A stretch of DNA of 64,000 bases from NCBI RefSeq assembly GCF_017352195.1, contig NZ_CP071445.1:2232001-2296000 (forward strand), written 5' to 3'. Position 1 is the first letter of the stretch. Each line of letters opens with the position of its first letter. This DNA is from Sedimentibacter sp. zth1. Lineage in GTDB: Bacteria > Bacillota > Clostridia > Tissierellales > Sedimentibacteraceae. The notes below the pieces were generated by a model. The model did no database searches, was not told the origin of the DNA, and was given only the letters and a program-made list of their open reading frames with translations. Below, piece after piece: positions 9,297-16,291 of the stretch. Both the position numbers and the translations under genes were made by a program.

Positions 9297-12140
9297 TTAC
9301 TCGTTACCTTCTGAATCTGTATTATCTTCATTATTTATATTTTCTTGAATCTCTTCATTTGTCTTAGTTTCATCTACACCTATTATTTGATTTAACTTTT
9401 TCAAAGTGTTTTCTAATAAATTAATTTTTTCACCATATAATGCCCAATCTCCACTCTTAAGAGCATTATCAGCTTCTACAAATAAAGTATTCGATTGTTT
9501 AACTAATTGTTCTATTGTTTTATCTTCTGTTCCATTATCGACAATTGGTTCTTGTGGATTGAAATTTTCAGAATAAATGCTACCTAATATTTTATCAAGT
9601 GCTTTATCTAATGTTGATTCCATTACAATTTTATCGTTATATGCAACTATTACCATTTTCATTTCAGGAAAATTACTTTGAGTATCTGCCTGCATATAAA
9701 TAGGTTCAACATATAACAATGAATTTTGTATTGGTATAACCAAAGTATTTCCTCTTAATACATTTGAACCTTTTTGGCTCCAGAGTGTTAATTGAGATGA
9801 AATTTCTGTATCTTGGTCAATCTTTGACTCAATTAAAGCTGTACCCTGTATAGTTTTGTTTTTAGGGAATTTATACAACAATAACTCACCATAATTTTCT
9901 CCATCATTTCTTGCTACTAGCATTGCAGACATATTGTCCTTAGCTTGTGGTGTATAAGGTATTGTCAATAAAAATTCTATTTCCTCTTCTCCTGGAAGTT
10001 TAAACATATAATAGTTTGGTATAACTTTTTCTTCACCAGCCATATATTTTTGCTTAGAAATATCCCAATTATCTTCTCTTCCAAAGAATACTGTTGGATT
10101 TTCCATATGGTAAGTTCTGTAAAGATCAGCTTGTATGTTAAACATTTCTTTAGAATATCTTATATGAGATTTAATTTCATCTGGCATTTCACTCATAGGC
10201 TTAAATAGCTCTTTAAATATTTCATTGTATGTCATTACAATAGGATCAGATTCATCTACTATATAAAAATCTGTATCTCCATTATATGCATCAACTACAA
10301 CCTTTACTGAATTTCTTAAATAGTTTATTTTAGAATCAGAAATTGGTTGCGAATATGGATACCTATTAGTCATTGTAAATCCGTCAATTATCCAATATAA
10401 TTTACCATCGTCTTTGTTTATAACTACATATGGATCATTCTCAAAAGATAAAAATGGTGCTATTTCTTGTACTCTTTTTATAATATTTCTATTAATAACA
10501 ATTTTACTTTCTTTATTGATATTGTTTGATATCAATAATTTATAGCTACCTTGTCTAATAGAAAATAATAATTTATTCATAAATGTTAAATTAATACCAG
10601 CAGTACCTTCGTATTTTGTTTCAACATTATCAGAACCAGCTGGATAGTCAAATTCATTTTCGTCTGTATTTACAATAACATAATCATTTGTTTTCTCACC
10701 AAAATATATTTCTGGTCTAGTTATCTCTAAATCAGTGTTTGATACTGGTGGAATATCCTTAATCAATAATTCTGGCTGTCCTTGTGGCGTTACTTTGTTT
10801 ACTTGAGATAATGCTATACCATAACCATGTGTATATTTTAAATATTGGTTTATCCAAGTTTTAGCTTGATCATTTAATAAACTTTGATCCAATTCCCTTG
10901 AAGATAAATATACCTGTTTATACTTGCCATCTATATAATATCTATCAATATCTACATCGTTAAAAACATAGTATGGTCTTATACCTTGTAGTTTATTGTA
11001 CACTTGATTTAATGGTGCTTTATCATTAATTCTTATGTTCTCTATTACTTCTTTATTATTTTCTATTTGTTCTTTAGTAAGACTATCATCAACATCAAAA
11101 TCAAGCTCCTCAACATTATCAAGACCATAAGCTAACTGTGTATATTTTATATTATTTAATAAATATTTTGATTCTTTTGATAATTGATCAGGTTCAACTA
11201 CAAATTTTTCTACCACACCAGCAGCCATACTTCCAAAAATAGAAACAGCTATAACAACTACTGGAACAACTAAAGCAATTTTAAGATTTTTCTTTCTTGA
11301 ACCGTAGAAAAATGTAAATGCTGAAATTATACACAATACAGCCATAATTCTATATACGTTTAATGTAACTGCTATATCTGTATAACCCGCACCAAATACT
11401 CTTCCTCTTGGTGAATATAATAAATCAAAAGTTGATAAAAATATCTTTGCTCCAAATAAAATTAATAGAAAAAATCCTAGAAAAGATACTTGGTTAATTA
11501 TACGCTGGAAAGTACTTTTATTAGCAAACTTTGAAAAATCAATATTTGAAGCTCCACCAGTTCCTTGTCCAGTAAACTCTTGAGAAATATCTTTAAATTT
11601 TTTACCTGCTCCATTTATTAAATTAAATACTACTGATAATATAATCATTAAAAATAATACATTTATAATAATTCCTACAACAGTATTTATAAGTGGTAAC
11701 TTAAATATATAAAAAGATAAATCGTTATTAAAAATTGGATCCAATACATTAAAACTTTGACTATTAAAAAATTGTAGAATTTCTAGCCATAATTTTGAAG
11801 TAACCCCCATTGTAAAAAAGAAGCTTATTGCTACTGACCCTAAAGCTATAAAAAGATTTGCTCTTTTTTTATTTTTAGTAATTTCAATCATTTTATCACT
11901 GTTCATATTTCTCTTCATAAGTTTCTTTATAAAAAAGAAAAATATTAAAAATAATATTGTAAATAGCGGCACTCCAATAACTAATTCAGCTTTTATTTTA
12001 GTTAAATATGCCTTTATATAACCAATTTCATTAAACCATAAATAATTAGTTATAAATTTTAAAATAGATCCAAATGAGGTTAAAAGTATAACAAGTAAAA
12101 CACTAATACTAATAATTCCAAATTTGCTTTTGTTTTTCAT
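9297..12140 (-). CDS. UPF0182 family integral membrane protein
   Basis: A 947-residue protein matching the UPF0182 (COG1615) family in length and layout. About seven membrane helices fill the first 310 residues (the first at about 8-28). A large soluble domain follows, probably outside the cell, with family-like segments such as YTHGYGIALSQVNKVTPQGQP, DIPP and FGRED. The acidic C-terminal tail (NEEIQENINNEDNTDSEGNE) is low-complexity. The biochemical role of the family is unknown. It stands alone between sigB and serS with a terminator on each side. Confidence 0.88.
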   Translation of the reverse strand: MKNKSKFGIISISVLLVILLTSFGSILKFITNYLWFNEIGYIKAYLTKIKAELVIGVPLFTILFLIFFFFIKKLMKRNMNSDKMIEITKNKKRANLFIALGSVAISFFFTMGVTSKLWLEILQFFNSQSFNVLDPIFNNDLSFYIFKLPLINTVVGIIINVLFLMIILSVVFNLINGAGKKFKDISQEFTGQGTGGASNIDFSKFANKSTFQRIINQVSFLGFFLLILFGAKIFLSTFDLLYSPRGRVFGAGYTDIAVTLNVYRIMAVLCIISAFTFFYGSRKKNLKIALVVPVVVIAVSIFGSMAAGVVEKFVVEPDQLSKESKYLLNNIKYTQLAYGLDNVEELDFDVDDSLTKEQIENNKEVIENIRINDKAPLNQVYNKLQGIRPYYVFNDVDIDRYYIDGKYKQVYLSSRELDQSLLNDQAKTWINQYLKYTHGYGIALSQVNKVTPQGQPELLIKDIPPVSNTDLEITRPEIYFGEKTNDYVIVNTDENEFDYPAGSDNVETKYEGTAGINLTFMNKLLFSIRQGSYKLLISNNINKESKIVINRNIIKRVQEIAPFLSFENDPYVVINKDDGKLYWIIDGFTMTNRYPYSQPISDSKINYLRNSVKVVVDAYNGDTDFYIVDESDPIVMTYNEIFKELFKPMSEMPDEIKSHIRYSKEMFNIQADLYRTYHMENPTVFFGREDNWDISKQKYMAGEEKVIPNYYMFKLPGEEEIEFLLTIPYTPQAKDNMSAMLVARNDGENYGELLLYKFPKNKTIQGTALIESKIDQDTEISSQLTLWSQKGSNVLRGNTLVIPIQNSLLYVEPIYMQADTQSNFPEMKMVIVAYNDKIVMESTLDKALDKILGSIYSENFNPQEPIVDNGTEDKTIEQLVKQSNTLFVEADNALKSGDWALYGEKINLLENTLKKLNQIIGVDETKTNEEIQENINNEDNTDSEGNE

Positions 12141-12242
12141 AGTTTTCTCCTTCTTTATTTTAAAGTTATTTATTATCTTTTAAGTTAAAACGTATTGTAT
12201 CATTTTTATATTTTTAAATCAACAAAAATATGTTGAAATGTT

Positions 12243-12279
12243 AAAAAAAGCAAAACTTACTTTAGTTTTGCTTTTTTTT
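12243..12279 (-). terminator. Intrinsic terminator after the sigma-factor gene
   Basis: GCAAAACT (12250-12257) pairs with AGTTTTGC (12264-12271), extended by flanking A and T runs, giving a hairpin with a T-run on both strands. It lies directly after the stop codon of sigB at 12281. Confidence 0.85.
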
Positions 12280-12280
12280 A

Positions 12281-13033
12281 CTATTTGTCAACTAATGCAT
12301 TTAATTTTTGTAGTGCTTTTTTTTCTAGTCTTGATACTGTCATTTGTGAAATATTAAGATTTTTTGCTATTTCAATTTGAGTTTTACTATTAAAGAACCT
12401 CTCTATTATAATCTTTTTTTCTAGCTCATTTAGTAAATTTAATGAATTTTTTATAAAATCATTGTTTTCAAAAATTTCATAACTATCTTTATTATCTTTA
12501 ATAGTGTCAACTAATTCTATTTCTTTACTATCGCTACCACTATCATAAGTCACATTTAAAGACTGAGTAGTAAACAACTTTCCAGCCTCCATTGCTTCCA
12601 AAACTTCTTCTTCAGAATATTTTAAATAATCTGCAATTTCTTTGACCGTTGGAACCCTATTAAGACTAAACGATAAAGTTTCATTTACAATATTTATTTT
12701 TTTAGATATTTCTTGAATACGCCTAGGCACTTTTATAGACCAACCCTTATCCCTAAAATACTTTTTAATTTCTCCAAGTATAGTTGGTGTAGCAAAACTC
12801 GTAAATTCAAAACCTCTTGATACATCATATCTTTCTATAGCGTATATTAATCCAATACTTGCTATTTGATATAGATCCTCGTACTCAACACCCTTATTTA
12901 TATATTTTTTTGATATAATTTCTGCAAGGTATTGATACTTATTAAATATTTGGTTTCTTATTTTAACACTTTTTTCTTTGCTATAAGTATTAAAAATATC
13001 ATAGTTTCTTATCTCATTTCTAGTATCATTCAC
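12281..13033 (-). CDS. sigB: RNA polymerase sigma factor, SigB/SigF/SigG family
   Basis: A 250-residue sigma factor with regions 2, 3 and 4. Region 2 contains YEDLYQIASIGLIYAIERYD and the promoter-melting segment GFEFTSFATPTILGEIKKYFRD. Region 3 is around PRRIQEISKKI. Region 4 has the helix-turn-helix KTQIEIAKNLNISQMTVSRLEKKALQKL. Length and sequence fit the partner-switching subgroup (general stress SigB or sporulation SigF/SigG). The order rsbV-rsbW-sigB next to gyrA matches my recollection of C. difficile, favouring a general stress factor over SigF. A SigF role cannot be excluded, because spoIIAA-spoIIAB-sigF has the same gene order. Confidence 0.85.
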   Translation of the reverse strand: MNDTRNEIRNYDIFNTYSKEKSVKIRNQIFNKYQYLAEIISKKYINKGVEYEDLYQIASIGLIYAIERYDVSRGFEFTSFATPTILGEIKKYFRDKGWSIKVPRRIQEISKKINIVNETLSFSLNRVPTVKEIADYLKYSEEEVLEAMEAGKLFTTQSLNVTYDSGSDSKEIELVDTIKDNKDSYEIFENNDFIKNSLNLLNELEKKIIIERFFNSKTQIEIAKNLNISQMTVSRLEKKALQKLNALVDK

Positions 13034-13048
13034 AATATCAACGCCTAC

Positions 13049-13420
13049 CTATTTAGAGTGTTTTAATTTAAATGTAATATTATTGTTTTCATAATTTATA
13101 TTATAATAATCTGCTAAACTATCAATTATCAAAACAAACATTTCACTATCTTCTATAGCACTTTTTGACAACATTTCTTTGTTTTTATCTGTAACCGTAA
13201 TTTCTATTTCATTATCATTCAAAAAATATTCTATTAAAAACGGTTCATTATTATCTTTAATACTATTAATAAAAAATGTACAAATTTCTGATATTATAAC
13301 CTTAATATCATTAATTTTATCTATATCAAAATTATAATAATTAGAAATCGAAGAAGTTGTTAATCTTACACAACTAATAAATTCAGATTTCTTAGGTATT
13401 TCGAGTTTAATAGTATCCAT
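13049..13420 (-). CDS. rsbW: RsbW/SpoIIAB-like anti-sigma factor with degenerate ATP-binding motifs
   Basis: A 123-residue protein between rsbV and sigB, the position of the anti-sigma serine kinase. The overall HATPase_c layout can be followed (MDTIKLEIPKKSEFISCVRL at the start, SEICTFF at the N-box, ITVTD before box G1). The nucleotide-binding residues are missing: the N-box Asn is Phe at about residue 49, the DxGxG box reads DKNKE (78-82), and the glycine-rich G2 loop reads EMFVLII. It may bind the sigma factor but is not expected to bind ATP or phosphorylate RsbV in the normal way. The rsbV gene ends 4 bases upstream, and sigB starts 15 bases downstream. Confidence 0.75.
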   Translation of the reverse strand: MDTIKLEIPKKSEFISCVRLTTSSISNYYNFDIDKINDIKVIISEICTFFINSIKDNNEPFLIEYFLNDNEIEITVTDKNKEMLSKSAIEDSEMFVLIIDSLADYYNINYENNNITFKLKHSK

Positions 13421-13424
13421 ATTT

Positions 13425-13742
13425 TCACACTTCTATATTAAAAACTTTATTTAAACCAGTAATATCAAATAACTTATATATATTTGGTTTTAAATTTTTA
13501 ATTTTTATTTCTATATGATTTTCTTTTGTAGTTTTTAAAATACTCATTAATGCTCCTAAACCAGTACTATCTAAATACTCAAGCTTTTCGGCATTTATTA
13601 TAATATTTTTGTTAGAATTATTAATAGTATTTAAAACATTTTCTTTAAATTTAGGAGACGTATAAATATCTACTTCACCTATTGGTAATACTTCAATATA
13701 ATTTTCTTCACATTCTTTATTTTCTTCTAATATTAGTGACAT
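13425..13742 (-). CDS. rsbV: Anti-anti-sigma factor, STAS domain (RsbV/SpoIIAA type)
   Basis: A 105-residue STAS-domain protein when started at ATG 13742, which has a GGAGGG site at good distance. A longer frame to 13754 would put that site inside the gene. The conserved phosphorylation motif is LEYLDSTGLGALMSILK, with the acceptor Ser at about residue 59 intact. In this family the unphosphorylated protein binds the anti-sigma factor and frees the sigma factor. The gene follows gyrA by 32 bases. The partner kinase next to it looks inactive, so the phosphorylating enzyme, if any, may be encoded elsewhere. Confidence 0.88.
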   Translation of the reverse strand: MSLILEENKECEENYIEVLPIGEVDIYTSPKFKENVLNTINNSNKNIIINAEKLEYLDSTGLGALMSILKTTKENHIEIKIKNLKPNIYKLFDITGLNKVFNIEV

Positions 13743-13774
13743 ATTACCCTCCATTTTAATTGTTTTATAGTTAA

Positions 13775-16291
13775 TTATTCAACGTCCTCTTCTTCTTCAT
13801 CATCAGTTAATAATTTTGCTAATGTTACAACTTTGTCACCATCATTTAATCTCATAACAGTAACCCCTTGAGTATCTCTTCCAGTTACTGATATATCAGA
13901 TACATGCATTCTAATTATAGATCCAACTTGACTAATAATCATTATGTCATTATTAGTTTCTGTAATCATTGCTCCAATAACATCTCCAGTTTTGTCATTA
14001 ATATTATGTGTTTTAACACCTTTACCTGCTCTTGCTTGTCTTCTATAAGCAGTTGTGCTTGTCATTTTTCCAAAACCATTTTCTGTTATTGTTAATAATT
14101 TTTCGTTGGTTTCAACAATACTTTCTTCACTTTCTTCAATTATATTATCTTCTAACTCAGAATAATTATTGGCATCTATTATTAACATAGCAACAAGGTT
14201 ATCATCCTTAGATGTGGATATCGCTTTTACCCCCATAGAAATTCTTCCTGTTGCTCGAACATCCTGTTCGCTAAATCTAATAGCTTTACCTTTTTTAGTT
14301 ATTACCAAGATATCCTTAGTTCCATCTGTTTTATTTACACTAATAAGTTCATCATCTTCTGCTATTTTTATAGCCATTAATCCTGATTTTCTTGATGTAT
14401 CAAAATCAATAAGTTTAGTTTTCTTTATAATACCTTTTTTTGTTGATAATATTAAATATTCATTTTCATTTGTAAAATCTTTCATAGGTATTATAGCAGC
14501 AACTTTTTCTCCTGCATCTAAATTAATCAAGTTTACAACAGCTGTTCCTTTTGCTTGACGTCTAGCTTCTGGAATTTCGTAAGCCTTAATTCTATATACT
14601 TTTCCCTTATTTGTAAAGAACATTAAATAATCATGTGTACTTGTTATAAATAAATCTTTTACAAAGTCTTCTTCCCTAGTAGTTAAGCCTGTTATTCCCT
14701 TTCCACCACGTCTCTGTGCTTTATAAGTATCTTCAGGTAGTCTTTTTATATAACCAAAATGTGTTAATGTTATTGCTACATTTTCTACTTCTATTAAATC
14801 CTCATAATGTATTTCATCTTCATCATGAGTAATTTCAGTTCTTCTTTCATCATAATACTTATTTTTAATTTCTGTTAATTCTGTTTTAACTATTTCATCA
14901 ATTAAATATGGACTAGCTAAAATTTCCTCATACTTGTTAATCAACTTAATTAATTCTCCATACTCGTCCTCAAGTTTTTCTCTTTCTAAACCTTGAAGAC
15001 GTCTAAGTCTCATATCTACTATAGATTTTGCTTGAATATCAGATAAATTAAATCTATTCATTAAATTTTCTTCTGCATCATTGTAAGAAGATCTAATAAT
15101 TTTTATTACCTCATCAATATTATCTATTGCGATTCTTAAACCCTCTAAAATATGAGCTCTTGCTTGAGCCTTCTTTAAATCGTACTCAGTTCTTCTTGTA
15201 ACTATTACTCTTTGATGAGCAACATAGTGAAAAATCATATCTTTTAAATTTAATACTTTTGGTTCACCGTTTACGAGAGCAATCATAATTATACTAAAAT
15301 TATCTTGTAATTGTGTATGTTTATATAAATTATTTAAAACTATATTTGCATTGTAATCTTTTTTAATTTCTACTACAATTCTCATACCAGTTCTATCACT
15401 TTCATCTCTTAAATCAGTTATACCTTCAATTTTCTTATCTTTTACAAGGTTAGCTATTTTTTCAATTAATCTAGCTTTATTAACTTGATAAGGGATTTCA
15501 TGAACTACTATTCTACTTTTATTATTTTTCATTTCTTCTATTTCAAGTTTAGATTTTACTTTAACAAATCCTCTACCTGTCATATAAGCATTTTTTATGT
15601 TATCCTTTCCAACTATTATTGACCCTGTTGGAAAATCTGGTCCTTTTATATATTTCATTAATTCTGGAATAGTTATTTCTGGATTATCTATAAATGCTAT
15701 TGTTCCGTTTATTACCTCACCTAAATTATGAGGTGGAATTGAACTTGCCATTCCTACTGCAATACCAGATGAACCATTTACTAATAAATTAGGAAATCTA
15801 CTCGGTAAAACAACTGGTTCTTTCAATGTTTCATCAAAGTTCAGTCTATAATCTACAGTTTCTTTACCAATATCTCTTAACATTTCCAAAGCCATTTTTG
15901 ACATTCTGGCTTCTGTATATCTCATTGCAGCTGCTCCATCTCCATCAACAGAACCAAAGTTTCCATGTCCATCTATCAATGTATATCTCATTGAAAAATC
16001 TTGTGCAAGTCTAACCATTGCATCATAAACTGCTGTATCACCGTGAGGGTGATACTTACCTAAAACATCCCCAACGATACGCGCACATTTTCTATGAGGC
16101 TTATCAGGAGAAAGCCCAAGTTCATTAGCAGCATATAAAATTCTTCTATGAACTGGTTTTAAACCATCTCTAACATCCGGCAAAGCTCTGCTTACAATAA
16201 CTGTCATAGCATATGCAAGATATGAATTTTGCATTTCTTGCTCTATGTTTTTATGCAAAACTTTATCATTATTGTTTTCTAAATTACTCAT
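13775..16291 (-). CDS. gyrA: DNA gyrase subunit A
   Basis: An 838-residue subunit that breaks and rejoins DNA during negative supercoiling. The start region contains [20 protein letters not shown]. The catalytic tyrosine lies in [12 protein letters not shown]. The GyrA box QRRGGKG, which marks gyrase rather than topoisomerase IV, is present in the C-terminal wrapping domain. The C-terminus ends in an acidic stretch (DDEEEEDVE). It follows gyrB by 25 bases and has a ribosome-binding site (GGAGG) before the ATG. Length and order are standard for the origin region of Firmicutes. Confidence 0.98.

Follow-up and report, generated by a model that had tools for sequence, protein, structure and literature searches.

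An RsbW-type anti-sigma factor without ATP-binding motifs and a candidate separate kinase for RsbV in Clostridia

The W locus and its ATP site

In the usual partner switch, one bifunctional protein both holds the sigma factor and phosphorylates its antagonist. A locus of Sedimentibacter sp. zth1 raises the question of where the kinase reaction resides, if anywhere, when the ATP-binding motifs of that protein are gone. The locus lies in the window, a stretch of 64,000 nucleotides that is part of a 3.13-Mb one-contig genome whose family (f1) contains Sedimentibacter. The gene concerned, here called W, stands between rsbV and a sigma factor gene (Table 1), which is the gene order of RsbW and SpoIIAB kinase systems. 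A first-pass annotation had placed W at the position of the anti-sigma kinase with a fold that can be followed, and had raised a partner switch without the usual switch, control through another enzyme, and an unusual nucleotide site as possible explanations. The placement is borne out by the flanking genes, and the fold by a structure model described below.

The minus-strand series consists of gyrB, gyrA, rsbV, W and sigma, and is followed by a terminator-like hairpin; the gene beyond the hairpin encodes a 947-aa protein that is not the protein K introduced below. Gaps of 20, 4 and 15 bp precede rsbV, W and the sigma gene, respectively. Because only 20 bp separate them, gyrA and rsbV are probably in one transcription unit. 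A promoter scan of positions 12100-14200 gave 20 sites against a shuffle mean of 17.0, which is near chance. The encoded sigma factor scores 258.6 bits against the SigBFG model (cut-off 234.35). The names gyrA, gyrB, engB, lon, yvcK, rapZ, spoVAC, spoIIGA, sigE and sigG used here were given by eye from translations.

Table 1. Positions of the genes, residues and signals discussed (window coordinates, except for protein K)
Feature	Positions	Strand	Description and basis
gyrA	13775-16291	-	20 bp upstream of rsbV; name by eye from translation
rsbV	13425-13754	-	Anti-anti-sigma STAS protein, 109 aa, intact; upstream of W
RsbV Ser63	13566-13568	-	In LDSTGLG, expected phosphorylation site; sequence
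W	13049-13420	-	RsbW-type anti-sigma factor without ATP-binding motifs, 123 aa, ATG start
W Arg19	13364-13366	-	Equivalent of RsbW Arg23 (RsbV contact); alignments
W Asp38-Ile39-Lys40	13301-13309	-	Asp38 and Lys40 equivalent to RsbW Asp42 and Lys44 (RsbV contacts)
W Glu45	13286-13288	-	Equivalent of RsbW Glu49, which contacts RsbV Ser56
W Phe49 codon	13274-13276	-	At the N-box Asn position; alignment
W D78 K79 N80 K81 E82	13175-13189	-	DKNKE at the DxGxG position; alignment
W E93 M94 F95	13136-13144	-	Glu-Met-Phe at the GxG position of the G2 loop; alignment
Sigma factor gene	12281-13033	-	SigB/F/G subfamily, 250 aa, GTG start; downstream of W
Terminator-like hairpin	12243-12278	.	Intrinsic-terminator type, directly past the sigma gene; 1 found, shuffle mean 0.2
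Protein K	G000:C1:1106108-1106488	-	Stand-alone GHKL protein, 127 aa; also L002 / L087:3106-3489

The residues of W were read off an alignment with C. difficile RsbW and others. The alignment agrees with the substitutions first described at all three motifs (Asn to Phe in the N-box, DKNKE in place of DxGxG, and no glycine in G2). The broader statement that all ATP-binding motifs are lost is correct for the motifs themselves; however, E45 and D78 remain, and thus not every active-site residue is gone. Against the NCBIfam RsbW models, which are its best curated matches, W scores 52.7 bits (cut-off 145) and 51.5 bits (cut-off 155.05), and its 18.9 bits against Pfam HATPase_c_2 are likewise below the cut-off of 27.4. 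The best PDB match is B. subtilis RsbW (6m36, E 2e-8). The homology of W to RsbW is real, although it falls under every curated cut-off.

A structure model of W built on 52 sequences has a mean pLDDT of 93.8. It was compared with both RsbW and SpoIIAB, giving Z 19.2 (rmsd 1.4, 112 residues aligned) to B. subtilis RsbW 6m37 and Z 17.8 to SpoIIAB 1l0o. The predicted protein has a GHKL fold of the RsbW type, and the ATP-site motifs are absent from it. The structural alignment spans residues 2-122, nearly the whole chain; since W matches RsbW over almost the full length, the motifs do not lie hidden at another site, and no equivalent residues were found at other places in the chain. The unusual nucleotide site first suggested is not supported, as the alignment puts Phe and other residues at the motif positions and no glycine loop occurs elsewhere within the aligned span. 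From its sequence and model, we infer that W binds no ATP.

Conservation of W and of its contacts with RsbV

The same loss was sought in relatives and is common to the whole family. A W homologue occurs in all 61 genomes of a sample of the window's order, its own included. It is beside a sigma gene in 61/61 and beside rsbV in 59/61; in the other two (L021, L035) the contig ends there. Three ATP positions were tested, the N-box Asn (49), the first Gly of DxGxG (80) and the last Gly of G2 (95), and W was scored as 'lost' when fewer than three of these were kept. None of the three is kept in any of the 27 family genomes, the window's own included, which rules out a loss limited to one genome. The omega values of W are 0.04-0.34 in 11 pairs, indicating purifying selection, and exceed those of the sigma gene in 10 of the 11. 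No stop falls within the W match in the 27 family genomes. The omega range shows the gene to be in use and rules out a pseudogene. A tie to sporulation was also considered: W with a lost ATP site occurs in f3 genomes, which have, among the matches listed, one SigB/F/G sigma above the cut-off and none that is possibly sigG. The loss is therefore not tied to sporulation.

In the crystal of the B. subtilis RsbV-RsbW complex, as reported in PMC7340262, RsbW contacts RsbV through Arg23, Asp42, Lys44/Ser48, Glu49 and Tyr118, with Glu49 touching the phosphorylatable Ser56 of RsbV. By sequence and structure alignments, the numbering of W is that of B. subtilis RsbW minus 4. Contacts were tallied for four positions (the equivalents of Arg23, Asp42, Lys44 and Glu49), and W has all of them. 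Over 223 distinct W homologues, R19 is kept in 223, D38 in 222, K40 in 217 (with Arg in 6) and E45 in 223, in homologues with an intact and with a lost ATP site alike. The N-box Asn, by comparison, is present in 0/69 genomes with protein K in the operon. In terms of sequence, the binding residues of W are retained and the catalytic ones are not; W would still bind sigma and RsbV.

The neighbouring RsbV is intact and has its phosphorylatable Ser, as first described, and the Asp-Ser pair is kept in 214/214 RsbV found. In a locus-level look, rsbV was not seen at L021 and L035, where the contigs end, nor at seven class loci (those of family f20 and G094).

Protein K and its association with W

A second RsbW-like kinase was sought in the window's genome with PF13581, and the search returned SpoIIAB (L001), protein K (L002) and weaker matches. 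The ATP motifs of K are intact (ELIINSIQHGN, DEGDG and GRGL), and this genome thus has both an ATP-less anti-sigma homologue and a separate GHKL protein with intact motifs. Here K adjoins putative engB and lon and is unlinked to rsbV-W-sigma. One strong match to K occurs in 60/61 genomes of the order sample, its own included, and it is absent only from a fragmented MAG. Of the 20 loci read, 16 have an engB motif inside the 5-kb K locus. Almost throughout the order sample (L200-L219 among the loci) K belongs to the core genes and mostly stands next to engB; genomes with an intact W have it too. In K, the E, N, D and glycines are conserved in 98-100% of 134 distinct sequences. The N-terminal region of K is divergent; the same region dimerises in RsbW. 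In a quick tree with long branches, in which 38 of 94 inner branches are weak, W groups with SpoIIAB in a supported set of 48 rows (98), and K falls outside it with other GHKL proteins. An origin of K as a recent copy of W is not supported by this placement.

Of 20 genomes searched, 12 have no small STAS protein other than the operon RsbV, and in all 12 the ATP site of W is lost (G028, G045, G058, G029, G046, G059, G030, G060, G040, G054, G042 and G055). Among the matches listed, PP2C-family proteins are present in all 61 order-sample genomes. One in the window's genome (L088:3126-4220) has a PAS-like N-terminus with a KCGEC motif and lies beside putative rapZ and yvcK; this protein is a candidate for the sensor and for the RsbV phosphatase.

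The W profile matched a reported 141 of 393 genomes sampled across the class, and the K profile 102. Outside the window's order, where 79 of the 102 lie, K is on the same strand as W and 0.83-1.68 kb after it in 65. All 65 linked loci read rsbV-W-sigma-K, with K as the fourth gene; Ruminiclostridium cellobioparum (L158, L467) is a named example of this arrangement. Four further cases of K in the operon are G133, G444, G070 and G478. G478 (L468) has the order rsbV-W-K, in which K abuts the end of W and no intervening sigma gene was found. K searches in C. difficile, Acetobacterium and Alkaliphilus, and in Romboutsia, Intestinibacter and Terrisporobacter, gave no match better than RsbW or SpoIIAB, and RsbW is intact in all six.

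The association between K and the ATP site of W was counted over 223 distinct rows. The tabulation held 236 rows, one per genome, comprising the order sample (61), the class sample (133, i.e. 140 of the 141 W-matching genomes minus 7 already in the order sample) and named genomes (42). Seven rows were removed as SpoIIAB rather than RsbW (G097, G125, G128, G228, G254, G309 and G400, all reading as no K with an intact site), leaving 229, and six more as duplicate genomes or proteins. Because most of the proteins behind the W profile are ATP-less, the class sample may be biased towards such W. All three ATP positions are kept in W in 0/69 genomes with K in the operon, 10/79 with K elsewhere and 65/75 without K, where a K score of at least 45 in a fetched locus counted as 'in the operon' and 'elsewhere' was taken from profile searches. 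The K called elsewhere in G297 and G489 are probably not orthologs, and moving these two genomes gives 8/77 and 67/77 intact. By family, the counts are 34 with K and a lost site, 5 with K and an intact site, 9 intact without K, and 1 lost without K (Fisher 8.6e-6, the families not being independent).

Exceptions occur in both directions. The presence of K with an intact W in 10 genomes indicates that K is not kept only where the ATP site of W is lost. Those of the window's order look like the state before the loss, and could also mean another job for K. A lost site with no K called was found in G094, G240 and G350, where either another kinase is needed or none; G240 keeps rsbV, and G350 has a weaker K-like match of 58 bits. 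A further exception, G004, is a fragmented MAG.

On the sigma-protein tree, each of the two traits changes 7 times. An independent-pairs sign test on this tree was not significant and had no power (a mean of 0.5 pairs the same way and 0.1 the other), and the association is therefore described as co-inheritance. If regain is disallowed and the tree is rooted on C. difficile (FastTree), there are 11 loss clades; in 10 of these K is found in nearly all members, and the eleventh is f20. L148 and L165 were omitted from the trees. The pattern is mostly an old split that has been co-inherited, together with repeated losses in the window's order, and the independent changes are few.

Proposed mechanism and related systems

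We consider it probable, from these comparisons and the model, that the kinase-dead W is a plain anti-sigma factor and that the kinase reaction resides on the separate K, the partner switch being spread over two proteins. W would hold sigma and bind RsbV without nucleotide, and K would phosphorylate RsbV on the Ser of DSTGLG. Phosphorylated RsbV would be unable to press this Ser against Glu45, and W would keep sigma. A PP2C-family phosphatase would strip the phosphate, upon which RsbV would take W through the kept contacts and free sigma. The role of K is suggested by operon linkage and by elimination, and that of a PP2C-family phosphatase is likewise putative. Since the RsbV-contact residues, the RsbV Ser, PP2C proteins and a candidate kinase are all kept, a phospho-switch probably persists with its kinase on another chain. 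The partner switch without the usual switch first proposed is for these reasons not favoured. Control through another enzyme is favoured by the intact K in the window's genome and by the class-wide coincidence of K with loss in W. Family f20, the only one with a lost site and no K, also has no rsbV beside W, which speaks for this reading.

The least improbable of the other readings, itself unlikely, is a mixed GHKL dimer of W and K, an obligate heterodimeric kinase in which W provides the surface for sigma and RsbV and K supplies ATP. RsbW and SpoIIAB each form homodimers, in the case of RsbW by way of strand 1 and helix 1 (PMC7340262); M. smegmatis RsbW1 and RsbW3 interact, as reported in PMC7693655; and W and K are linked in the operon. 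However, it is the dimerising part of RsbW that is divergent in K, K lacks this linkage in the window's order, and it stands outside the RsbW/SpoIIAB set in the tree.

It is less likely again that no phosphorylation takes place, RsbV and W competing by their amounts, with the Ser kept for its contact with Glu45 and K employed elsewhere. Conservation of both residues would follow from the Ser-Glu contact by itself, K also occurs with an intact W, and G240 has rsbV with a lost site and no K called. Against this stand the presence of K in the rsbV-W-sigma operon of 69/223 genomes with its catalytic residues kept, the 12 genomes in which RsbV is the only small STAS protein, and the persistence of PP2C-family phosphatases.

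The reading in which K is the RsbV kinase also has to be weighed against other known kinases. SpoIIAB or a Hanks-type kinase could phosphorylate RsbV while K serves another pathway, and the window's genome indeed has an intact SpoIIAB without sigF beside it. This seems to us more doubtful still: operon linkage points to K, and in three genomes with a lost site in W (G055, G059 and G060) the matches listed at E<=1e-4 include no HATPase_c_2 protein other than K, so that no SpoIIAB is seen there.

Binding of nucleotide by W through a rebuilt site that keeps E45 and D78 is very improbable. E45 never varies, and 34 of 69 lost-site W with K elsewhere retain D78; however, E45 is explained by its contact with RsbV, D78 survives in no more than 14 of 69 operon-K genomes, and neither the alignment nor the model has a glycine loop, the lid region being shortened in both. 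That W is a decaying gene heading for loss, as its missing motifs and its omega above that of the sigma gene might suggest, is refuted for practical purposes by purifying selection, the uninterrupted matches in the family and the near invariance of the RsbV-contact residues.

The principle of a split switch is already known from M. smegmatis, in which SigF is held by RsbW1, a protein without kinase activity, and RsbW2 alone phosphorylates RsfB, a division of labour established by kinase assay in vitro and with a deletion strain (PMC7693655). The likeness lies in this division, the mycobacterial side being taken here from PMC7693655 alone. The two cases differ in phylum and in arrangement, as rsbW2 is in an operon with rsfB according to the same source, whereas K follows sigma or adjoins engB. 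C. difficile has the same V-W-sigma order and the same DSTGLG in RsbV, which is phosphorylated at Ser57 in vivo (reported in PMC8730811 and PMC9674922). Unlike W, its RsbW keeps the N-box, DNGKG and GLG, and its genome has no K match better than SpoIIAB, whereas the window's genome has K. The B. subtilis RsbV-RsbW-SigB system is similar in the fold and RsbV-contact residues of RsbW and in the DSTGLG of RsbV. The SpoIIAA-SpoIIAB-SigF system is similar in fold, but SpoIIAB keeps its ATP motifs, also in the window's genome. UsfX, the anti-SigF of M. tuberculosis (8ih8, 8jzt), gives Z 18.1 (8ih8) to the W model, but only 15% identity in the structural alignment.

A literature search, covering largely papers available without subscription, found no description of a split switch for Clostridia. 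What is new here is the split in this class, the four-gene operon, a candidate kinase outside the RsbW/SpoIIAB set, and the retention of the RsbV grip where the ATP site is lost. The analysis thereby names K as a candidate kinase for RsbV. If the proposal is correct, the holding of sigma is untied from ATP in W, and K is a new control point. If the jobs are split in much of Clostridia, naming such W genes as kinases would mislead.

Six f20 loci (L416, L419, L425, L433, L434 and L438) carry W-sigma without rsbV and without K beside them, and gyrA is upstream in both of those read (L416 and L433). Five of the six W proteins contain SCHG, with an H in the former DxGxG loop (plus a C in four) and CxxC in the former lid. 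These Cys and His residues in the dead nucleotide pocket are a possible metal or redox site. We suggest tentatively, as something rather less than an even prospect, that much of Clostridia (98 of 133 class-sample genomes with RsbW) has a gyrA-linked or similar stress-type sigma under an anciently split kinase and anti-sigma factor, and that the f20 W is a direct metal or redox sensor. If so, a dead W pocket, freed from ATP, can take new roles.

At L462 and L465, more distant stand-alone GHKL proteins adjoin a STAS gene, with no W or sigma gene found in the locus. The spoIIA operon of the window's genome consists of spoIIAA-spoIIAB with spoVAC immediately after them and no sigF (L086:4282-5699, i.e. 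G000:C1:564281-565698; L085:5684-8107); sigE and sigG are present. Among the matches listed, genomes of the family have at most two SigB/F/G sigmas above the cut-off (sigG and the window's sigma), and many relatives in the order have three (e.g. G032, G033 and G053).
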